Shown piece after piece: positions 19,009 to 31,607 of a stretch of 64,000 nucleotides of DNA. How positions within the stretch are numbered: position 1 is the first letter of the stretch; every line of letters starts with the position of its first letter. The notes under the pieces were generated by a model, which made no database searches, had not been told where the DNA came from, and saw nothing but the letters and a program-made list of their open reading frames with translations. The stretch covers positions 1-64,000 of the forward strand of contig JACPDI010000021.1 of the NCBI GenBank assembly GCA_016184105.1. Direction: 5' to 3'. A program made the position numbers and the translations under genes. The stretch is from Acidobacteriota bacterium. Lineage in GTDB: Bacteria > Acidobacteriota > Vicinamibacteria > Vicinamibacterales > 2-12-FULL-66-21.

Positions 19009-19890
19009 GTGGCAGCCGCATCATACCTGCTCGTCTCCCTCCGGCCCCACCAGTGGACGAAGAACCTCATCGTCTTCGCGGGGCTGATCTTCGGACAGCG
19101 GCTGCTGGACGCGGAGGCGGTTGCCCGCTCCAGCGGCGCGTTCGTGATTTTTTGCGCTCTTTCCAGCGCCATCTACCTGGTCAACGACATTGTCGACCGC
19201 GACGCCGACCGGCGGCATCCCGTCAAGTCGGCGCGCCCGATTGCGTCCGGCGCGCTGCCCGTGCGGATCGCTGCCTACGCCGCCGCTCTCCTCGCCGCCG
19301 GCGGGTTGGCGGCGTCGCTGGCGCTCGGGCCGCTGTTCGCGCTCGTCGCGGCCGGCTACGTCGCGCTCCAGAGCCTGTATTCCGGCCCGCTGAAGCGGAT
19401 CGTGATCATCGACGTGCTCACGATCGCGGGCGGTTTCGTCGTGCGGGCCGTCGCCGGCGCGGTCGCCATCGCCGTCCCGATCAGCCACTGGCTGCTCGTC
19501 GTCACGGTGCTGCTGGCGCTGTTTCTCGCGCTCAGCAAACGCCGGCACGAGCTCGTGCTGCTTGCCGATGGTGCGACAGACCATCGCCAGATACTGGGTG
19601 AGTACAGCCCCTATCTGCTCGACCAGATGATTTCGGTGGTCACCGCCTCCACGCTGGTGGCGTACGCGTTCTACACCATCAGCCCCGAGACGGAAGCGAA
19701 GTTCCAGACCGGCCTCCTGGGCCTCACGGTGCCCTTTCCGCTGTACGGAATCTTCCGGTACCTGTATCTCGTGCACCGGAAGGAACTGGGCGGAAGCCCG
19801 TCGGATCTGCTGCTGACCGACCGCCCCCTGCTCATCTGCGTCGCGCTCTGCGCGCTGACCGTGATGGCCATCATCTATGGCCCGCGATGA
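19009..19890 (+). CDS. UbiA-family decaprenyl-phosphate phosphoribosyltransferase-like protein
   Basis: A 293-residue membrane protein with about eight hydrophobic helices. The Asp-rich prenyl-phosphate/Mg motif is N-D-I-V-D-R-D-A-D near residues 60-68, and RPHQWTKNLIVF at the N-terminus plus HPVKSARPIASG match DPPR synthase-like proteins such as mycobacterial Rv3806c, which moves phosphoribose from PRPP onto polyprenyl phosphate. Start GTG at 19009 follows GAGGCGG with an eight-base spacer. It overlaps the DUF362 gene by four bases and heads a glycosyltransferase operon, which fits a role in making a lipid-linked pentose donor for a surface glycan. Confidence 0.85.
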   Translation: MAAASYLLVSLRPHQWTKNLIVFAGLIFGQRLLDAEAVARSSGAFVIFCALSSAIYLVNDIVDRDADRRHPVKSARPIASGALPVRIAAYAAALLAAGGLAASLALGPLFALVAAGYVALQSLYSGPLKRIVIIDVLTIAGGFVVRAVAGAVAIAVPISHWLLVVTVLLALFLALSKRRHELVLLADGATDHRQILGEYSPYLLDQMISVVTASTLVAYAFYTISPETEAKFQTGLLGLTVPFPLYGIFRYLYLVHRKELGGSPSDLLLTDRPLLICVALCALTVMAIIYGPR

Positions 19891-21086
19891 ACCTCGGCGG
19901 CTACCGCGAGGTCATCGCGCCGGATGCGGACACGGCGCTCAAGATCAACATCTCCTGGCATTTCTTCTTCCCGGGCAGCTCGACCACGCCGTGGCAGCTC
20001 GAGGGGGTGATCCGGGCGATGAAGCGGGATGGCTACCGTCCCGAGTTGATCCACGGCTGCCACAACCGGACGGTCGTGATTGACGCCCACCTCGGCGAGC
20101 GCGAAAACAAGCAGCTCAACGTGATCCAGGCGCACGGGCTGCGCAACGTGCACATCTACGAGGGGGAGGACTGGATCAACGTCCGCGACGCCGTGGGGGA
20201 CCTCGCGAACAAGTTCCTCGTGTTGAACCAGGTGTACCCCGACGGGTTCATGATCCCGCGGCGGTTCATCGGCGAGAACATCATCCACCTGCCCACCGTG
20301 AAGACCCACGTGTTCACGACGACGACCGGCGCGATGAAGAACGCGTTCGGGGGGCTGCTCAACGAGCGGCGGCACTGGACGCATCCGGTCATCCACGAAA
20401 CGCTCGTGGACCTGCTCATGATCCAGAAGAAGGTTCATCGCGGCGTGTTCGCGGTGATGGACGGCACGTTCGCCGGTGACGGGCCCGGGCCCCGCTGCAT
20501 GGTGCCGCACGTGAAGAACGTGCTGCTGGCGAGCGCCGACCAGGTGGCCATCGACGCGGTCGCGGCGAAGCTCATGGGCTTCGACCCGATGCAGATCAAG
20601 TACATCCGCGCGGCGCACGACCTCGGCCTCGGGTGCGGCGACCCGCGCGAGATTGACATCGTCGGCGACCTGGAGGCGGCAAACGAGAACTGGCGCTTCG
20701 TCGGGCCGTTCCAGAGGATGACGTTCGCCTCGCGCATGCAGCACAGGATCTACTGGGGACCCTTGCGTAAGCCGGTCGAGTGGTCGCTCAAGACGGTGCT
20801 CGCCCCGTGGGCGTACCTGGCGAGCGTGGTGTATCACGACAGCTTCTGGTACCCCGTCCACGCAAGGCGCATGATGCACGAGGTGCTGGAGAGCCCGTGG
20901 GGCCGGCTGTTCCGCAACTGGGAGCACGTCACGGCCGACGAGCAGGGCTACCCGGACGTGGGGAGCGGCGGCGCGGAGCTGCAGCTCACCGGCGCCCGCG
21001 CGCTCGGCCGATCGATCGGGATCCTGGGCACGTGCATCAGGGAAGCGCCGGAATTCGCCGCCCGGAAGCACAGGGCGGCGAGGTAA
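19887..21086 (+). CDS. DUF362-domain protein in glycan operon
   Basis: A 399-residue protein matching the DUF362 pattern: KINISWHFFFPGSSTTPWQLEGVIRAMK near the start, the core INLPTVKTH-like segment (IHLPTVKTHVFTTTTGAMKNAFGGL near 130-155), and the late VLLASADQVAIDAVAAKLMGFDP (about 210-235). DUF362 proteins have no settled function; some carry ferredoxin domains, but no Cys cluster is seen here. A C-terminal region of about 120 residues (WGPLRKPVEWSLKTV onward) has an aromatic, possibly membrane-associating helix. The ATGA overlap with the UbiA-type gene implies co-translation. Confidence 0.75.
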   Translation: MNLGGYREVIAPDADTALKINISWHFFFPGSSTTPWQLEGVIRAMKRDGYRPELIHGCHNRTVVIDAHLGERENKQLNVIQAHGLRNVHIYEGEDWINVRDAVGDLANKFLVLNQVYPDGFMIPRRFIGENIIHLPTVKTHVFTTTTGAMKNAFGGLLNERRHWTHPVIHETLVDLLMIQKKVHRGVFAVMDGTFAGDGPGPRCMVPHVKNVLLASADQVAIDAVAAKLMGFDPMQIKYIRAAHDLGLGCGDPREIDIVGDLEAANENWRFVGPFQRMTFASRMQHRIYWGPLRKPVEWSLKTVLAPWAYLASVVYHDSFWYPVHARRMMHEVLESPWGRLFRNWEHVTADEQGYPDVGSGGAELQLTGARALGRSIGILGTCIREAPEFAARKHRAAR

Positions 21087-21107: not shown

Positions 21108-21992
21108 ATGGCTGAGTTCTCAATCCGCTCCGATGCCGTCGACGTCGAGCAGATCATGCGCCAAATCCGCGCGCGGATCCGCGAGAAGCGCGGCGCCGAC
21201 TACACCGAGCAGGAGATACGGCAGCTCGCCACCGCGAAGCTCGAGACGTTTCTCGACCCGACGCGCGTGCGATCCGACCTGCTGGAACAGTTCCGCGCCG
21301 TCAGGAGCCAGCAGCCCGCGGCGCCGAATTTCGCGTTCGAGGACACCACGATTTTCGAGACGCACCGCCCTCTGCTGCGCTTCATGCGCCGGCTGCTGCG
21401 GCCCGTCCTCAAGCTGTTCTTCAATCCCAACCCGATCGCCGAGGCGCTGCACGTTCAGGCCGGGGTCAATCAGCGCACCGCCGAGTCGCTCGGCCGGGTC
21501 GAAACGCTGTATTACGAGCTGATTCACAACCTGGTCGTCGAAGTCACGCGGCTGGGGATCGAGGTCAAGAACCTCAAGATGAAGGTCGAATCGGTCTCGG
21601 GCCGCCTCGACTTCGACGAGCGCCGGGCCCGGGCGCTCGAAGGCGCGGTGCAGTACCGCCCTGCGGCGCTCCAGCAGGAGCGCCCGCCGCGTCAGGCGCG
21701 CGACGGCGGAGAACGCGCGGCGGCGCCCGACCGCGGCGGCGAAGGAGTCGAGGGCGATCGCCCGCGGCAGGGACGGGGCCCGCAGACGCCCGAGGAGGGC
21801 GAGCGCCGCAGGCGACGGCGGCGCCGCGGCCGCCGACGTCACGGCGGCGGGCAGGGCGCTGCCGGCGCGGCCGGCGAGGCGACGGTCGATGCTGGCGAAA
21901 CCGGCGCGCCGGAGCATGCCGCCGAGGCCGCGGCCGACGCCGGGCATTCGGACAGCACCGGCGATCCAGCCGGGTCTGACGATCAGCCGTGA
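21108..21992 (+). CDS. Protein of unknown function with Arg/Gly-rich disordered tail
   Basis: 294 residues in two parts. The first 180 residues look folded: DVEQIMRQIRARIREKRG, then LLRFMRRLLRPVLKLFFNPNPI (amphipathic or membrane-associating) and helices with heptad-like spacing to about 180 (VEVTRLGIEVKNLKMKVESVSGRL), probably coiled coil. From about 190 the sequence is low-complexity, with a cluster of ten or more arginines (near 235-245) and alternating Gly/Ala/Asp. I do not recognise the family. Similar N-terminal segments occur beside glycosyltransferases in related genomes as far as I recall, so a scaffold for the GT cluster is a guess. The stop overlaps the next start (GTGA). Confidence 0.6.
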   Translation: MAEFSIRSDAVDVEQIMRQIRARIREKRGADYTEQEIRQLATAKLETFLDPTRVRSDLLEQFRAVRSQQPAAPNFAFEDTTIFETHRPLLRFMRRLLRPVLKLFFNPNPIAEALHVQAGVNQRTAESLGRVETLYYELIHNLVVEVTRLGIEVKNLKMKVESVSGRLDFDERRARALEGAVQYRPAALQQERPPRQARDGGERAAAPDRGGEGVEGDRPRQGRGPQTPEEGERRRRRRRRGRRRHGGGQGAAGAAGEATVDAGETGAPEHAAEAAADAGHSDSTGDPAGSDDQP

Positions 21993-23320
21993 AGCTGGCG
22001 ATTGTCGTTCAGCGCTACGGCGCCGACATCAACGGCGGCGCCGAGCTGCACGCGCGCTACATCGCGGAGCGGCTGTCCCGGCACGCCGAGGTGGAGGTCT
22101 ACACCACCTGCGCGCGTGATTACGTCACCTGGAAGAACGAGTTGCCGGCCGGCGAGGAGCGCGTGAACGGCATCCGCGTGCGGCGGTTTCGCGTGTCGCG
22201 GCCGCGCGACACGCGCGATTTCGGCCGCCGGTCGCAGCGCGTCTTCGGCGAGGCACACTCGGTGGCCGACGAGCTGGCATGGCTTCACAGCGAGGGGCCG
22301 GCCAGCCCCGCGCTCATCTCCGCGATCAGTCGCGACGCGGCGCGCTTCGACTTCATCATCTTCTTCAGCTATCGCTATTACCACGCGTATCACGGCGCAC
22401 GGGCCGTGCCTGCCAGGGCGGTGCTCGTCCCCACGGCGGAGCGCGACCCCGCCGTCGCGCTCGGGATCTTCGGCCCGCTGTTCCGCGGCGTGCGCGGGAT
22501 CATGTACAACTCGTACGAGGAACGCGCGCTGATCCACCGCGTCTCCGCCAACCAATCCGTCCCCGGCGTCGTCGTGGGCGTGGGTTCCGACGTGCCGGAG
22601 CGCACGAACCCTCAGCGATTCCGCAAGAAGTTCAACCTGCGCGGCGCGTTTGCCGTGTATGTCGGCCGCGTCGACGAGAACAAGGGGTGCGTCGAGCTGT
22701 TCGAATATTTCCGGCGGTACGTGCAGGAGTTTCCGCGCGGGCTCTCGCTGGTGCTCATCGGCAGCGCCGTGATGAAGATCCCCGCGCACCCGCGGATCCG
22801 CCACCTTGGCTTCCTTCCCGACGAGGACAAGTTCGACGCGATCGGGGCAGCCGACGCGCTCATCATGCCGTCGCAGTACGAGAGCCTCTCGATGGTGGCG
22901 CTCGAGGCATGGGCGCTCGGCCGGCCCGTGCTGGCGAACGGCCGCTGCGACGTCCTGCGCGGCCAGTGCATGCGCAGCAATGCCGGTCTTTACTACGACA
23001 ACTACGACGAGTTCGTCGAGACGCTGTACGCGCTCGAGTCGAACGGCCCGATGAACGGCGTGCTGGGACGCAACGGCCGCGAGTATTTCCGGCGCCATTA
23101 CACGTGGCCGGTGATCGAGCGCAAGTACCTCGACATGTTCGACCGGCTCTCGCGCGAGAAGGACGGCGCGCGCATGGAGCCGCTGCCCGGCTGGTGGGCG
23201 CGCCGCGCGCGCGCGCTCCCGCCGGCCGGCGACGTGCTTGCCGGCATCCCCTCGGGGCCGGTCGTCGACAGGCAGCAACGGGCGGCCGCCGCACAGAACG
23301 ACGCGCCGCGCCGCGCCTAG
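21989..23320 (+). CDS. GT4 glycosyltransferase A
   Basis: 443 residues, GT-B fold retaining glycosyltransferase. N-terminal acceptor domain starts VVQRYGADINGGAELHARYIAERL; a diagnostic CARDYVTWKNELP segment lies near 45-57. The C-terminal donor domain has FAVYVGRVDENKGC near 220 and the E-x7-E type catalytic region PSQYESLSMVALEAWALGRPV near 292-312. It is clearly paralogous to glycosyltransferase D at 25725. A short low-complexity tail follows. GTG start overlaps the previous stop. The sugar donor cannot be told from sequence. Confidence 0.85.
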   Translation: MKLAIVVQRYGADINGGAELHARYIAERLSRHAEVEVYTTCARDYVTWKNELPAGEERVNGIRVRRFRVSRPRDTRDFGRRSQRVFGEAHSVADELAWLHSEGPASPALISAISRDAARFDFIIFFSYRYYHAYHGARAVPARAVLVPTAERDPAVALGIFGPLFRGVRGIMYNSYEERALIHRVSANQSVPGVVVGVGSDVPERTNPQRFRKKFNLRGAFAVYVGRVDENKGCVELFEYFRRYVQEFPRGLSLVLIGSAVMKIPAHPRIRHLGFLPDEDKFDAIGAADALIMPSQYESLSMVALEAWALGRPVLANGRCDVLRGQCMRSNAGLYYDNYDEFVETLYALESNGPMNGVLGRNGREYFRRHYTWPVIERKYLDMFDRLSREKDGARMEPLPGWWARRARALPPAGDVLAGIPSGPVVDRQQRAAAAQNDAPRRA

Positions 23321-23324
23321 CGCC

Positions 23325-24578
23325 ATGCGTAACGTTCACCAGGTGCTCGCGACGCTCAGCTACGGCGATGCCATCGGCCACGAGGTGCTGGGCATCCAGC
23401 GCGTGCTGCGCGCGCGCGGCTTCCGGTCCGAGATCTACGTGGAGACGGCGCACCCCCGTCTCGAGCACCTCACGCGGGACTATCGCGAGATGGTGGCGCA
23501 GGTCGGCACGGACGACCTGCTCATTCATCACTTTTCGATTGGCTCGAAGGCGTCGCGGATTTCCTACGCGCTGCCCGCGCGCATGATGCTCGTCTACCAC
23601 AACATCACGCCGCCGGAGTACTTCACCGGCGTCAACAAGGAGCTGGCGGAGAGCTGCTTCCTCGGGCGCCGCGAGCTGGCGGGTTACGCCGGACGGTGCG
23701 AGTTGGCCGTGGGAGACTCCGAGTTCAATCGCGCGGAGCTCCAGGCGCTCGGCTTCGATCCGACCGCCGTCCTGCCCGTGGTCCCCGATTTCTCGCACCT
23801 CGATGGGGAGCCGAACGCCTTCGTGGCGCGCGCGTTCGATGATGACTGGACGAACATCCTGTTTGTCGGGCGCGTGATCCCGAACAAGCGGTTCGACGAC
23901 CTCGTGCGAATATTCCACGCGTACCGCACGCGCTGCAACCGCCGCTCGCGGCTGCTGCTGGTGGGCTCATCCACCGGCTTCGAGAGCTATCGCACGCAGC
24001 TGTACCACCTGATCGCGCAGCTCGGTACGCCTGACGTGTATCTGACGGGTCACATCACGAACGAGGAGCTTGCGGCCTTCTACGACGTGGCGGACCTGTT
24101 CCTCAGCGCCAGCGAGCACGAGGGCTTCTGCGTCCCGCTCATCGAGGCGTTCTACAAGGAAGTGCCGGTGCTCGCCTACGCGGCGACGGCCGTGCCGTGG
24201 ACGCTCCATGGCGGCGGCGTGCTGTTCGAGGACAAGGATCCGCGAGCCGTGGCCGCGCTGATGGACGGCATTCTCTCCGACACGGAGGTCCGCGACGCGG
24301 TGCTCGATTCGCAGGAGCGGGCGCTCGAACGGCTGCTCGCCGAGGACTTCGCCGGCACGCTCATGGGGCACGTGGAGCGGGCCTTCGCGGCGCCGAAACG
24401 CACGTGCGAGGTCGCGTTCGACTTCTGGCAGCAGGTGGATACGTACGAGCGCCTGAAGGCCCTGAAGAAGGTCCGGCCGGCGTTGTACGAAGCGCTGCCG
24501 GCGGAGGTGCCAGGGGCCGCGGGGTACCAGGGGTCAGAGGCCGGGTACCAGGGGCCAGAGGCCGGCGACGAGGGATGA
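23325..24578 (+). CDS. GT4 glycosyltransferase B
   Basis: 417 residues, GT-B fold. N-terminus VHQVLATLSYGDAIGHEVLGIQRVLRARG; acceptor domain marks LVYHNITPPEYF and GDSEFNRAELQALGF; donor domain NILFVGRVIPNKRFDD near 180-195 and SASEHEGFCVPLIEAF near 265-280, the E-x7-E region. It is paralogous to glycosyltransferase C, its direct neighbour. The last 20 residues (GYQGSEAGYQGPEAGDEG) come from a two-copy 21-bp tandem repeat and are probably an acquired tail. The start ATG at 23325 lies four bases after the previous stop. Confidence 0.85.
   Translation: MRNVHQVLATLSYGDAIGHEVLGIQRVLRARGFRSEIYVETAHPRLEHLTRDYREMVAQVGTDDLLIHHFSIGSKASRISYALPARMMLVYHNITPPEYFTGVNKELAESCFLGRRELAGYAGRCELAVGDSEFNRAELQALGFDPTAVLPVVPDFSHLDGEPNAFVARAFDDDWTNILFVGRVIPNKRFDDLVRIFHAYRTRCNRRSRLLLVGSSTGFESYRTQLYHLIAQLGTPDVYLTGHITNEELAAFYDVADLFLSASEHEGFCVPLIEAFYKEVPVLAYAATAVPWTLHGGGVLFEDKDPRAVAALMDGILSDTEVRDAVLDSQERALERLLAEDFAGTLMGHVERAFAAPKRTCEVAFDFWQQVDTYERLKALKKVRPALYEALPAEVPGAAGYQGSEAGYQGPEAGDEG
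24522..24563 (+). repeat. Two-copy 21-bp tandem repeat at end of glycosyltransferase B
   Basis: Units 24522-24542 and 24543-24563 differ at one base and contain GGGTACCAGGGG and CAGAGGCC. Words of this repeat (GTCAGAGGCC, GGCCAGAGG) reappear inverted in non-coding DNA at 59042-59074, so a dispersed intergenic repeat seems to have become part of this reading frame. Confidence 0.6.
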
Positions 24579-25636
24579 TCGTCAACCAGTGGGTGCCGGC
24601 GGCGCACAGGGGCGACGCGATCGGAGACAGCGCCCGTCGCGTCAGGGACATGCTGCGACAGCGGGGGCACCAGTCCGACCTCTTCGCGATGACCGTGGAC
24701 GACGATCTGCGCGACGAGGTTCTGCCGTTTCCTCACGTCGCGGCGCAGCGCGGCGACATCACGATCTTTCACTTCGCGCTCCCGTCGCCCATGACCGGCG
24801 CCTTCGCCCGCGTGCCGGGCGTCCGGGTGATGCAGTACCACAACATCACCCCTGCGCATTTCTTTGCGCCCTACGCACCCGCGCTCTTCCGCCTGGCCGC
24901 GCTGGGGCGGCAGGAACTCGCCGCGCTCGCGGGCAAGGTGGACCTCGCGCTCGGCGACTCGGAGTACAACCGGCGCGAGTTGGAGCAGCTCGGGTTCACC
25001 CGGACGGGAGTCATGCCGATCGCGGTCGACCTGCGCCGCATCACCGACGCGCCGCCGCGCCCCGCGCTCGAAGAGATCCTGGACGATCGGCTGACCAACA
25101 TCCTCTACGTCGGACGCATCGCACCCAACAAGAAGATCGAGGATCACGTCCGCCTTGCGGAGCACTACAAGCGCTACGTCGACGCGGAGTGCCGGTTCAT
25201 CTTCGTGGGCCGCTACGACGGCGTGCCGCGGTACTATGCCATGGTCCGCGCCCTCATCGAGCGGTACAGGATGCTGCCGGAACGGTTCCTCTTCACGGGC
25301 CCCGTCCCGGATGAGGACCTGGCCACCTATTACCGGATGGCGGATGCGTACGTCTCGCTGAGCGAGCACGAGGGCTTCTGCGTGCCGCTGCTGGAGGCCA
25401 TGGCGGCCGGCGTGCCGATCCTCGCCTACTCGTCCACGGCCGTGACCGACACCCTGGGCGGGGCGGGCATTGAGTTCTTTCCCAAGGACCTCGAGTTCGG
25501 AGCGGAGCTGCTCGGGTCGCTGGTGTTCGACGAAGGCGTGCGGGAGCAGGTACTCGCCGGCCAGCGCCGGCGCGTGAACGACTTCGGCGACGAGCGCACC
25601 GTGCGCGAGCTGGACAAGTGGCTGGGTACGATATGA
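24575..25636 (+). CDS. GT4 glycosyltransferase C
   Basis: 353 residues, GT-B fold, start ATG overlapping the stop of glycosyltransferase B (ATGA). Begins IVNQWVPAAHRGDAIGDSARRVRDML; shares with B the marks MQYHNITPAHFF, GDSEYNRRELEQLGF, NILYVGRIAPNKKIED and SLSEHEGFCVPLLEAM (about 262-277). The pair probably arose by tandem duplication and then diverged. The gene ends exactly where an 82-bp palindrome begins. Confidence 0.85.
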   Translation: MIVNQWVPAAHRGDAIGDSARRVRDMLRQRGHQSDLFAMTVDDDLRDEVLPFPHVAAQRGDITIFHFALPSPMTGAFARVPGVRVMQYHNITPAHFFAPYAPALFRLAALGRQELAALAGKVDLALGDSEYNRRELEQLGFTRTGVMPIAVDLRRITDAPPRPALEEILDDRLTNILYVGRIAPNKKIEDHVRLAEHYKRYVDAECRFIFVGRYDGVPRYYAMVRALIERYRMLPERFLFTGPVPDEDLATYYRMADAYVSLSEHEGFCVPLLEAMAAGVPILAYSSTAVTDTLGGAGIEFFPKDLEFGAELLGSLVFDEGVREQVLAGQRRRVNDFGDERTVRELDKWLGTI

Positions 25637-25724: not shown

Positions 25725-27029
25725 ATGAAGATCGGGTTCGTGATTCAGCGGTACGGCACGGAGGTCCTCGGCGGGTCCGAGTACCTGTGCCGGCTCGTGG
25801 CCGAGCGACTCGCAGCGCGCCACCCGGTCGAGGTGCTGACCACCTGCGCGCGCGATTACATCACCTGGAAGAACGAATACCCCGAGGGCCCGGACCGTGT
25901 CCGCGGGGTGACGGTGCGCCGTTTCGCCACGGCGCACACCCGCGACCTCGAGGAGTTCAATCGGTACTCCGACTGGATCTACGCCAACCCGCACACGCGG
26001 CAGGACGAGATCGAGTGGTTGAAGCAGCAGGGCCCGTGGTCCCCCGCGCTCGTCGAGTATCTCCAGCGCCAGCACGCGTCGTTCGACGTGCTGGTCTTTT
26101 ACACGTACCTCTACGCGCCGACCGTGCTCGGTCTGAAGATCGATCCCGCGCGCAGCGTGCTCGTCCCGACGGCGCACGACGAGCCGGCAATCCGCCTCGA
26201 CATCTTCCAGGAGGTCTTCAGCCTCCCGGCCGGCCTCGTGTACAACACGGACGCGGAGCGCCGGTTCGTGCGCGCCAACTTCCGCCTGCGGGCGCTCGCC
26301 GAGGAGGTCGTGGGGATCGGCGTCGACATCCCGCGGAGCAGCGAGGAGACGGAGCCCGCGCCCCTGGCATCGGAGGAGGAGGGACGCGTCGAGGTCGAGG
26401 TGAGCGAGGACCCGGAGCGGGACCACGTGCACGATGAGGAGTCCCCCACCTTCCGCAACCACCTCGCGCACAAGGGGGAAACGTTCCGGCGGCGGCATCG
26501 GCTGCACGGGCCGTTCGCGCTCTACGGCGGCCGGATCGACGCGGGCAAGGGCTGTGAAGAGCTGGTCGAGTACTTCAGCAGCTACGTGAAAGAGGGAGGC
26601 GAAGGATCGCTCGTGCTCATGGGCGTGAAGATGATGCCCATCCCGGATGAGCCGTTCATCCGCTTCGCCGGCCAGCTACCCGACCAGGAGCGCTCGCACG
26701 CCGTCGAGGCCGCCACGGTGGTCGTGGTGCCCTCTCCCTTCGAGAGCCTGTCAATCATCGCGCTCGAGGCCTTCGCCGCCGGCACCCCGGTGCTGGCCAA
26801 CGCGCGCAGCGACGTGCTGGTGGATCACTGCCGCCAGAGCAACGCGGGGCTGTACTATGCCGACCGCGACGAGTTCGTCGAGTGCCTGCGGCTCCTGATG
26901 GGCGACGAGAAGCTGCGCCTGGCGATGGGACGCAACGGCCGCGAGTACGTCCGCCGCAACTACCGGTGGGACATCGTCATGCAGAAGTACGAGCGGGTGT
27001 TCGCGAAAGTGCGGGCCGCGGGAAAATAA
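25725..27029 (+). CDS. GT4 glycosyltransferase D with acidic insert
   Basis: 434 residues, GT-B fold, paralogue of A (VIQRYGTEVLGGSEYLCR, TTCARDYITWKNEYPEGPD near 40-58, FALYGGRIDAGKGCEE, PSPFESLSIIALEAFAAGTPV near 340-360). Unlike A it has a roughly 45-residue insert between the two domains (about 203-245) rich in Glu, Asp and Ser, ending near FRNHLAHKGETF, likely a flexible acidic linker. ATG at 25725 is chosen because homology starts there; a frame open to 25680 would read through the palindrome. The last codons (Ala-Ala-Gly-Lys-stop) lie inside a second palindrome. Confidence 0.85.
   Translation: MKIGFVIQRYGTEVLGGSEYLCRLVAERLAARHPVEVLTTCARDYITWKNEYPEGPDRVRGVTVRRFATAHTRDLEEFNRYSDWIYANPHTRQDEIEWLKQQGPWSPALVEYLQRQHASFDVLVFYTYLYAPTVLGLKIDPARSVLVPTAHDEPAIRLDIFQEVFSLPAGLVYNTDAERRFVRANFRLRALAEEVVGIGVDIPRSSEETEPAPLASEEEGRVEVEVSEDPERDHVHDEESPTFRNHLAHKGETFRRRHRLHGPFALYGGRIDAGKGCEELVEYFSSYVKEGGEGSLVLMGVKMMPIPDEPFIRFAGQLPDQERSHAVEAATVVVVPSPFESLSIIALEAFAAGTPVLANARSDVLVDHCRQSNAGLYYADRDEFVECLRLLMGDEKLRLAMGRNGREYVRRNYRWDIVMQKYERVFAKVRAAGK

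Positions 27030-27083: not shown

Positions 27084-27099
<16 letters not shown>
27014..27099. repeat. 86-bp near-perfect palindrome spanning two convergent stop codons
   Basis: Arms 27014-27049 and 27064-27099 are 36-base reverse complements with one mismatch; the inner 25 bases are perfect. The loop is 14 bases. The core reads GGGGGACAGTCACAC. The TAA of glycosyltransferase D (27027-27029) and the TAA of the response regulator (27084-27086) sit at mirror positions. As RNA this would be an extremely stable hairpin and bidirectional terminator. The GGGGAC start recalls GGGGTC in the RAYT ends and in the palindrome at 51488. Confidence 0.88.
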
Positions 27100-28532
<1,433 letters not shown>

Positions 28533-28572
28533 GATTCCCGTGAGTGCCGGCGCCGCCTTCGCAGGCGGCGCG

Positions 28573-31491
28573 CTAGCTCTTGGCGGCCTGCTCCGCGCGG
28601 GTTGCCGCCAGTGGCAGCGACAGGGCGAACCTGGTGCCCTGCCCCTCGGCGCTTTCACACGTCATTGTACCGCCGTGTTCCTGAACGATACCGTACGTGA
28701 TCGAAAGCCCCAATCCGGTGCCCTTGCCGATGGCTTTGGTGGTGAAGAACGGGTCGTAAATGCGAGACAGGTGCTCCACCGGAATCCCCAGCCCGGTGTC
28801 GGAGACCTCGATGAGCGCCGTGCCATGCTCGCGGCGCGAGATGACCGACAACCACCCGCCGCGCGGCATGGCGTCCCTCGCGTTCAGGAACAGGTTCAGG
28901 AAGACCTGCTGGAGCTTGTATTCGATCCCGTCCACGATCGGGGTCGCCGTGCAGAGTTCCTTCCTGACCTGGATCTTCGCGTTGCGCAACTGGTGGTCGA
29001 GCAGCGCCAGCACGTCGTTGATGACCGCGTTGACGTCCACCGGCCCGGTCTCCACCTGCGCCGGGCGCGCGAGGTTGAGCAGGCCATTGACGATCTTGGC
29101 GGCGCGGAAGGTCTGGCGCTCGATCTTCTCCAGCAGCTTCGTGCGGGGGTCGTCCGGGTCCGCACGGTCGAGCAGCATCTGCGTGTAGCTCGAGATCCCG
29201 GTGAGCGGTGTATTCACTTCGTGCGCCACGCCGGCCGCGAGCAGCCCGATCGACGCCATCTTCTCGGATATCTGCAGCTGCTCTTCGAGCTGCACGCGCG
29301 AGGTGATGTCCTCGATGATGACGATCGTGCCCGCCGTGTCTCCGGCGGGCGTCCTGAGCGGCGCCGCGGCCACGTTCACCAGGAGACGGCGCGGCCCATC
29401 GGCGTGCGCGCTCGCCAGCGGCACGCGGTACAACAGGGCCCCCGCCGGCGACTCGCGCCGCGCGGCGCGCAGCGACTCGACGAACGACGGCTCGAAGATC
29501 GCATCGAGCGGCCGGCCCACGGCGTCCGCGCGCGCGAGGCCGAACAACTGCTCGAGCGGCGTGTTCCAGCGAAGGACGCGGTCCTCCAGGTCGACGACGG
29601 CGAGGCCGTCGCTCAGCGACTCCAGGATGCTGTCGCTGAACTGGCGCATCCGATCGACCTCGTCCGCCTTGACACGCAGCTGGCGGTACAGCCGCGCGTT
29701 CTCCAGGGCGGTGGCGGCCTGCGCGGCGACGGCAGCGAGCAGCGCCATGTCCTCGCTGCTCAGCGGCTCGCCGCTGGCGCGCCGGCCGAGCGCCATGACG
29801 GCAATCGTGCCTTCCTTCGAGACGCAGGGCACGAAGTAGTGCACGCCGCTGTCCTTCCACGCGGCCACTTCGTCCGGCGAGTACCGCCGCGCCGTGAACG
29901 CGTCCTCGAGGGACACCGCCTGGCCGGCGAGCAGCCGCGACGCGATCTCGGACTGCCGTGCCAGATGCGGCCGCTCGTCGGGGTCGAAACCGGCCGCGGC
30001 GATCACGCCGAACGCATGCGGCGTCCGCTCGCTTCCGTCGGGAGGCGCCAGCATCAGCGCCATCCGGTCGACGACGAGGGTTTCGACGACGCGCTGCACG
30101 AGGCGCTCGCTGAGCCGCTGGAGGTCGAGATCGCTGTTCAGCTCTCGCGCGAATCCGACGAGCGCGCGGCGGTAATCGTACCGATCCCGGTAGTACACGC
30201 GGTCGAGCGCCATCTGGATGGCGTTCTTCACCGGATTGGCCAGGAGCACGACGACGAGCGTCGCCAGCAGGGCGATGACCGTGTTGTGCTCGTCGCGGCC
30301 GTCGAGGAAGACTTCTCCCGCGAAGCGCAGCAGCATGGCGTAAATCGCCGCAATCGCCGCCACGGCGGCCGCATACACGAGGCTGCGCTTGATAATCACC
30401 TCGACGTCCATCAACCGGTAGCGGACAATCGCCGAGGCGAAGGCGAGCGGCACCACGCCGACGAGCAGCGCCGTCAGCTCCACGGCCGCAGGGGGGCGCA
30501 TGCCAAGGACGAACGGCACGACGTACCCGAACACGAACGGCACCGTGCCGAGCGACGTGCCCCACACGATCCAGCGCAGCTGCCGTCGTGCGGTGACCGA
30601 CCGCACGCGCGCCAGCGCGCGCACCATCACGGCAAGTCCCGCGCTCAGACAGACGGCGAGATACACCAGCTCGAGCCTGTCGAGCCACTCGATCGTGGTC
30701 GACAGCGACGCCCCGTTCTCGCGTGCCAGCGCTGTCACGCGAAGGCCGCCGAGGGCGAACGCCGGCAGGTACAGGAGCGGCAGGAGGGTCCGGCCGGTAT
30801 CGGTGCGCACCCACGCAGTCGGGCGCTCGGGGAACACGAGCGCGAAGTGAACGAAGAGCGGCGGGAGGAGCAGCATCGACACCGCGTCGCCCCAATAGAA
30901 GATCCGGTCGAGCGTGTCGAGACGGCCGCTGAACGAAAACGCGAGCACGCCGTAGAACGCCACCGTCAGCCAGAAGAAGTGCAGCGTCGCCTGGTCGGAC
31001 GGGCGGCGGAGCCGCACCGACGTGCCCACAAACAGCGTGAACATCGCCACGCCGGCGAGCAGGTAATACAGCAGCGGGTCCCCTTCAGGGACCGGGGCCA
31101 GCACCACGTCGGCCACGCGCTCGGTGCCGGCGTGGAAGATGGTGTAGGTCAGGCCGTCCCCTTCGCGCCCGCGGTGCATCGCCTGCACCACGTCGTTGAC
31201 CGATTCGATCGGCCGGCCGTCGATCGCCAGCAGCGTATCGCCGGGCTCGATGCCGGAAGCGGTCGCGGGCGAATCGGGCGCCACGGCGCGCGCGACGACA
31301 TCGCTGCCCGACAGCGCCCAGAGCACGCCGTCCTCGACCTCGTGCCACGTCGTGCGGACGGCGATGTTCGCCGCGCCAAGCGACGCGAGGACCGCAGCAA
31401 TGCCGACCGGCAGCACCACGCGCCAGAGAAGCAATCCGCGACGGCTCTGAGAAGTGTCCACGTGAACCGTGGAGAACGAAGCAAGAGGCAT
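28573..31491 (-). CDS. PDZ-GAF-PAS sensor histidine kinase
   Basis: About 972 residues. Order: a first membrane helix (about 20-40); a PDZ domain (about 65-140, with ASGIEPGDTLLAIDGRPI) placed outside the cytoplasm; roughly seven more membrane helices to about 430; a GAF-like domain (about 480-620); a PAS domain (ILESLSDGLAVVDLEDRVLRWN, about 650-760); HisKA with phospho-His in AAGVAHEVNTPLTG (near 785); and HATPase with N box NLFLNARDAM, DTGLGIP and GTGLGLSITYGI. ATG at 31491 is preferred; a GTG eight codons upstream is possible. It pairs with the NtrC-type regulator just downstream. PDZ in the sensor region suggests detection of a peptide or misfolded-protein signal. Confidence 0.9.
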   Translation of the reverse strand: MPLASFSTVHVDTSQSRRGLLLWRVVLPVGIAAVLASLGAANIAVRTTWHEVEDGVLWALSGSDVVARAVAPDSPATASGIEPGDTLLAIDGRPIESVNDVVQAMHRGREGDGLTYTIFHAGTERVADVVLAPVPEGDPLLYYLLAGVAMFTLFVGTSVRLRRPSDQATLHFFWLTVAFYGVLAFSFSGRLDTLDRIFYWGDAVSMLLLPPLFVHFALVFPERPTAWVRTDTGRTLLPLLYLPAFALGGLRVTALARENGASLSTTIEWLDRLELVYLAVCLSAGLAVMVRALARVRSVTARRQLRWIVWGTSLGTVPFVFGYVVPFVLGMRPPAAVELTALLVGVVPLAFASAIVRYRLMDVEVIIKRSLVYAAAVAAIAAIYAMLLRFAGEVFLDGRDEHNTVIALLATLVVVLLANPVKNAIQMALDRVYYRDRYDYRRALVGFARELNSDLDLQRLSERLVQRVVETLVVDRMALMLAPPDGSERTPHAFGVIAAAGFDPDERPHLARQSEIASRLLAGQAVSLEDAFTARRYSPDEVAAWKDSGVHYFVPCVSKEGTIAVMALGRRASGEPLSSEDMALLAAVAAQAATALENARLYRQLRVKADEVDRMRQFSDSILESLSDGLAVVDLEDRVLRWNTPLEQLFGLARADAVGRPLDAIFEPSFVESLRAARRESPAGALLYRVPLASAHADGPRRLLVNVAAAPLRTPAGDTAGTIVIIEDITSRVQLEEQLQISEKMASIGLLAAGVAHEVNTPLTGISSYTQMLLDRADPDDPRTKLLEKIERQTFRAAKIVNGLLNLARPAQVETGPVDVNAVINDVLALLDHQLRNAKIQVRKELCTATPIVDGIEYKLQQVFLNLFLNARDAMPRGGWLSVISRREHGTALIEVSDTGLGIPVEHLSRIYDPFFTTKAIGKGTGLGLSITYGIVQEHGGTMTCESAEGQGTRFALSLPLAATRAEQAAKS

Positions 31492-31607
31492 ACCCCGGCC
31501 GGCGGGACTGGTCACGAGCTAAACGGCTGAAAAATAGACAATTATCCTGCGAAAAGCGCTCACAAAATTGTGCGCCATTCAACGGGACGGAACGGCGGAT
31601 TCAAATT

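Follow-up and report, generated by a model that had tools for sequence, protein, structure and literature searches.

Protein X, encoded by an open reading frame (ORF) on the plus strand (positions 21108 to 21992, stop codon included; ATG start, 294 residues) of the 64,000-nucleotide stretch of acidobacterial DNA analyzed here (the window), is on balance best explained as the noncatalytic component that scaffolds a glycan-assembly complex of four GT4 enzymes and anchors it to the membrane. We base this reading on a conserved helical module with an amphipathic helix and heptads, on its coupling to the glycosyltransferases GTa to GTd, on reuse of the module, and on an arginine block that, in the genomes compared, is confined to the order Vicinamibacterales. 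X is a stand-alone module protein with a two-part layout, in which conserved helices extend to about residue 180 and are followed by a disordered tail. An AlphaFold2 model of the single chain (65 rows, mean pLDDT of 67.9, pTM of 0.40) places helices at residues 13 to 28, 34 to 48, 51 to 68, and 88 to 104 and one long helix at residues 107 to 180, and is unstructured from residue 181 on. Together with the heptads described below, the model bears out the original prediction that this ORF combines a folded coiled-coil half with a disordered tail.

X is the head of an operon with four GT4-type glycosyltransferase genes, all on the plus strand: GTa, its closest partner (21989 to 23320; Pfam); GTb (23325 to 24578; the Pfam run covered 23325 to 24575, and the ORF can start at 23238); GTc (24569 to 25636, start taken at 24569); and GTd (25725 to 27029, start taken at 25725). 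Directly upstream of X, on the same strand, lies a DUF362 gene (19887 to 21086; Pfam), preceded by a UbiA-family, decaprenyl-phosphate phosphoribosyltransferase-like gene (19009 to 19890; Pfam/NCBIfam). The order purD-(zinc finger)-STAS-UbiA-(DUF362)-X-GTa-GTb-GTc-GTd-response regulator-histidine kinase recurs across 57 loci; some have gaps, and others reach a contig end. Searched with the window's own sequence, the DUF362 gene was found in only part of the order's loci, so it does not accompany X consistently. At 53 of the 57 loci, GTa is listed next after X; at two (L062 and L075), GTd is, and at the remaining two (L041 and L069), the contig ends there. In the window, the stop codon of X and the GTG start of GTa share the four bases GTGA (21989 to 21992, plus strand, read from the sequence); the same 4-base overlap is present in 68/70 complete X-GTa pairs. 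The C-terminal residue of X is Q in 44 of 73 orthologues, and the constancy of the last residues probably reflects this overlap rather than function. Downstream of the glycosyltransferases, in most loci as in the window (27084 to 31515), are an NtrC-type response regulator and a large histidine kinase, whose weaker matches include the PEP-CTERM/XrtA pair PrsR/PrsK, below cutoff.

With the N-terminal 184 residues of X as the query, 57 of 60 related genomes gave a match (the records are mostly titled Acidobacteria, several Vicinamibacterales), as did 50 of the 51 with completeness of 90% or more and contamination of 5% or less; in Vicinamibacterales, X is a core gene present in single copy. Looking for N-terminal homologues and their neighbors in other genomes, as had been proposed, returned relatives with a conserved gene neighborhood. 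X is row 1 of our alignments A1 to A4 and matches the diverse profile A3, which includes X itself, with an E value of 5.7e-61. Among 297 genomes drawn from a larger group of the phylum, profile A2 matches 61 and the broader A3 matches 77, with E values of distant matches that come from profiles including some of the same families. GTa homologues (E value of 1e-80) occur in 70 of the 297: 67 genomes have both X and GTa, 3 have GTa only, 10 have X only, and 217 have neither (Fisher P of about 1e-51, not corrected for shared ancestry). X lies just upstream of the best GTa match in 58 of the 70 genomes and is not adjacent in 12, at least one of which (G312) is probably explained by a contig break. 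Gene order, the overlaps, and co-occurrence in 67 genomes strongly support the predicted partnership with glycosyltransferases.

The module is also duplicated with its partner. At all eight Vicinamibacterales loci fetched (L253 to L260), a second, shorter stand-alone copy, 143 to 190 residues long except for one ORF of 254, directly precedes a GTa paralogue and in most cases overlaps it (for example, L254:9658-10122, with the GTa paralogue from 10122). The overlap and the joint duplication would suit a private subunit that stabilizes or activates GTa alone and scaffolds none of the other glycosyltransferases. We consider this unlikely: at six loci outside the order (L205, L207, L209, L210, L211, and L222), it is GTb that follows X, with no GTa there, and at the two loci noted above, it is GTd.

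Outside Vicinamibacterales, 27 of 35 loci have a relative of GTa to GTd beside the X module and 8 do not. Because several of these 8 are beside unrelated genes, the module can act elsewhere. Some are near obg- or ATP-synthase-subunit-like genes, as read from the listed sequences, and a different use there is possible; in L195, L198, and L219, the homologue lies upstream of an obg-like gene, a few genes away, with no glycosyltransferases nearby. The original prediction regarded homologues located away from glycosyltransferase genes as evidence against it; such homologues exist at these 8 loci, but the orthologues are not among them. Beyond Acidobacteriota, the searches covered plasmids and viral contigs; no relatives of X were found on the viral contigs, and two queries found no relatives of the stand-alone module on the plasmids.

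Within the phylum, the module region also precedes a C-terminal SAM-methyltransferase in eleven ORFs of 386 to 538 residues (L241 to L249, L251, and L252); of the ten scanned against Pfam, all match methyltransferase families. The relationship between the X module and these N termini was recovered by profile-profile comparison (96.2% probability, E value of 2.5e-9, residues 12 to 128), and a profile of the methyltransferase N termini matches 52 of 58 X proteins and no reversed control. Many loci with module-methyltransferases or second copies also hold GT4-like or UDP-glucose dehydrogenase-like ORFs, as read from the listed sequences. The best solved relative of the module-methyltransferases is 3dli. 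A weak A3 match, L250, was dropped as lying outside the frame of a plausible fusion. Methyltransferase N termini of this kind might be expected outside Acidobacteriota as well. For this comparison, 4 plasmid methyltransferases, from Pseudomonas, Roseomonas, Ruegeria, and Sulfitobacter, were fetched among the 62 records that a first query matched. They have the methyltransferase part in common, but their N termini gave no significant match to the module (best E value of about 0.1), so we limit the proposed module to Acidobacteriota.

The family, as defined here from its sequences, combines an N-terminal IM..IR helix, an RR..LLRP..KL.FNP amphipathic helix, and a coiled coil ending in RR.R.LE; X has all three. 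No Pfam or NCBIfam model, nor any model in the libraries searched, covers it: the Pfam scan of X gave no family at E values up to 1, and all NCBIfam matches were far below curated cutoffs, including one to RhlB (E value of 0.42) that spans the tail and looks compositional. Among solved structures, no PDB chain, WbdD included, matches profile A2 at E values up to 10, and none matches X by fold at an E value of 0.001. A literature search returned nothing on the X protein.

The conserved N-terminal helical region (residues 1 to 68, positions 21108 to 21311, plus strand) comprises helices 13 to 28, 34 to 48, and 51 to 68 and carries the motif VDVEQIMRQIR..REKRG.DYTE. The basic helix that follows (residues 88 to 104, PLLRFMRRLLRPVLKLF, positions 21369 to 21419, plus strand; charge of +5) is a candidate in-plane membrane helix with a hydrophobic moment of 0.89. 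The 11-residue windows of highest moment in X start at residues 86 to 94, and the alignment-averaged moment over residues 87 to 105 exceeds that of shuffles (P = 0.006), so that a membrane-associated amphipathic helix is plausible here. X has no transmembrane segment; its best 19-residue Kyte-Doolittle mean is 0.75, versus 2.39 for the neighboring UbiA protein. A Wzz-type polysaccharide copolymerase, which requires two transmembrane helices, was rejected on this measure.

The long helix (residues 107 to 180, positions 21426 to 21647, plus strand) is a predicted coiled coil, whose heptads keep one register across three alignments. In A4, hydrophobicity over residues 134 to 180 is 0.71 at a/d positions versus 0.24 elsewhere (28 of 5,000 shuffles), and in A3, none of 5,000 shuffles reaches the observed value. 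A hydrophobic-moment test on the same helix was not above shuffles; only the binary heptad test was. The part between N106 and E137 varies from 20 to 56 residues among 65 sequences, most of the differences being steps of three or four, while residues 142 to 178 span 37 residues in 65/65. Eleven of the 15 distinct lengths fall on coiled-coil steps, a pattern matched by 633 of 20,000 random draws and therefore suggestive only.

This architecture recalls WbdD of Escherichia coli O9a/O8 and Klebsiella pneumoniae O3/O5. The noncatalytic C-terminal region of WbdD is reported to combine a coiled coil, an amphipathic membrane helix, and glycosyltransferase recruitment (PMC11231755, PMC3482155), and the recruited enzyme is WbdA (PMC3482155). 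X shares the predicted extended coiled coil (the long helix with its heptad register) and the candidate amphipathic helix, with a glycosyltransferase link known from genes, and its module, too, is joined to methyltransferases in Acidobacteriota. However, Pfam and NCBIfam detect no kinase, methyltransferase, or glycosyltransferase domain in X, the module precedes the methyltransferase in the acidobacterial fusions and so the order of parts differs, and the A2 search of PDB chains shows no sequence relationship to WbdD. X therefore resembles part of WbdD but is no WbdD, since it has neither a terminator domain nor a sequence match; by analogy, it may work like the noncatalytic half of WbdD without the terminator enzyme, while not being a sequence member of the WbdD family. 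The coiled-coil terminators of K. pneumoniae O4, O7, and O12 (a GT137 protein, ORF6 of O7, and WbbB) differ in the same way, each having a terminating enzyme that X lacks. A further likeness is to PglH, of the GT4 class, and to other membrane-associated GT4 enzymes, which act on lipid-linked acceptors at the membrane; in the X system, by contrast, the membrane-helix candidate sits on a separate partner protein.

The comparison also raises the idea that X is a chain-length spacer, a WbdD-like ruler split off into its own gene, whose coiled coil would set the distance from the polymerizing glycosyltransferases to a separately encoded terminator. The length-variable stretch beside one of constant length, the coiled-coil steps, and the fusion to methyltransferases elsewhere in the phylum would all fit. 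However, the evidence from length steps is weak, the annotated genes around X in the window include no methyltransferase, kinase, or other terminator gene, and the module-methyltransferase profile has no match at an E value of 1e-30 in the window's genome. We regard a spacer of this type as distinctly improbable.

The tail divides into a variable disordered linker (residues 184 to 232, positions 21657 to 21803; charge of −1), an arginine block (residues 233 to 244, RRRRRRRRGRRR, positions 21804 to 21839; charge of +11), and an acidic disordered C-terminal end (residues 245 to 294, positions 21840 to 21989; charge of −10), all on the plus strand. Its net charge is therefore 0, and the description of the tail as highly basic does not hold for the tail as a whole. 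"Arg/Gly-rich" is correct for composition (20 R and 21 G among 111 residues) but not for what is conserved, which is one arginine block and not RG repeats. Defined as a 12-residue stretch with at least 9 R/K, the block is found after a linker of variable length in 72 of the 73 complete Vicinamibacterales orthologues (80 loci minus 6 incomplete at a contig end, minus L162, an over-long frame that enters GTa out of frame, and L176, which has unknown bases, plus the window). For each of the same 72, shuffling the tail yields such a stretch in <1% of shuffles. The sequence that follows is acidic in 73/73 (mean charge of −11.1). The sole exception to the block, L125 (L125:3156-3926), keeps the operon and shows no frame change; either natural loss or assembly collapse of repeat-like codons may explain it. 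Four proteins (L066, L067, L223, and L224) carry an arginine/glycine-rich N-terminal extension besides the C-terminal block.

Across species, the block uses all six arginine codons in mixed order, with usage similar to that of the domain, which points to selection on the protein and rules out a low-complexity or DNA-level repeat as its origin. Nor is poly-arginine a common by-product of these GC-rich genomes: a stretch of 9 of 12 R/K is present in 47 of the 659 gene-like ORFs at loci of the order, and 41 of the 47 are X; among the other six, four lie across X on the other strand, and the last two are in L050 and L058. The block contains R and K at 708:18, compared with ratios of 2.8:1 for the domain and 8.2:1 for the remainder of the tail.

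None of 35 homologues outside the order has the block; a few (L190, L202, L203, and L206) have short lysine/arginine-rich ends. Homologues without the tail were likewise to speak against the original prediction; they are found among these distant relatives and not among the orthologues. Because distant homologues lack the block, and some also lack relatives of GTa to GTd, the tail was added specifically in this order to an older glycosyltransferase-partner module and is not the essence of X.

Arginine-rich tails are known from bacterial RNA-binding proteins such as RhlB and RNase E, and in some RNA-binding proteins, acidic tails regulate release. X likewise has an arginine-rich block in a disordered tail; it differs from RhlB and RNase E in having no helicase or nuclease domain and in its glycan operon context. 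One could thus imagine that the block binds RNA or ribosomes, tying the mRNA or ribosomes of the glycosyltransferase operon to the membrane so that the complex assembles during translation, with the acidic end regulating release. Near-pure arginine over lysine suits phosphate and nucleic-acid contacts, the acidic stretch accompanies the block throughout the orthologues, and the 4-base overlap with GTa suggests translational coupling. But X has no RNA-binding domain, with no Pfam or NCBIfam model at curated cutoff, and homologues that lack the block retain this operon; we therefore give this scenario a low probability. The block is best read, from its composition and distribution, as a phosphate-binding tether that would have been gained in the Vicinamibacterales ancestor and would be moderated by the acidic end. 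Its ligand would most likely be an anionic phospholipid or a lipid-phosphate carrier, with RNA as a possible alternative. The neutral tail weakens the case for simple electrostatic attachment of X to the membrane; the predicted membrane- or polyanion-binding scaffold is plausible, given helix 88 to 104, the coiled coil, and the preference for arginine.

In the scaffold and anchor model that we favor, helix 88 to 104 would sit in the cytoplasmic leaflet of the inner membrane, and the long helix, with a membrane-proximal half of variable length, would oligomerize and space the enzymes. GTa may be bound by the N-terminal helices, the coiled coil, or both, and the other glycosyltransferases via GTa. 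In Vicinamibacterales, the arginine block would bind phosphate-rich partners, with the acidic end as a competing mask. A bolder and rather doubtful extension is that an unnamed adaptor module, spread across the phylum, connects a GT4 set, a second GT4, or a methyltransferase to glycan-assembly complexes at the membrane via a length-tunable coiled coil and that Vicinamibacterales upgraded it once with a self-masked arginine block, making assembly switchable by a polyanion (RNA or lipid-phosphate carriers).

If the favored model is true, the noncatalytic half of WbdD-like systems can be encoded separately and can serve as a module that is combined with different enzymes. It is then the conserved first gene of a core four-glycosyltransferase operon in Acidobacteriota, whose surface glycan assembly is little studied. 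X with GTa is a named target for pulldown and deletion work, and the order-wide arginine block with its acidic countertail offers a clean, testable disordered electrostatic element fixed across an order.
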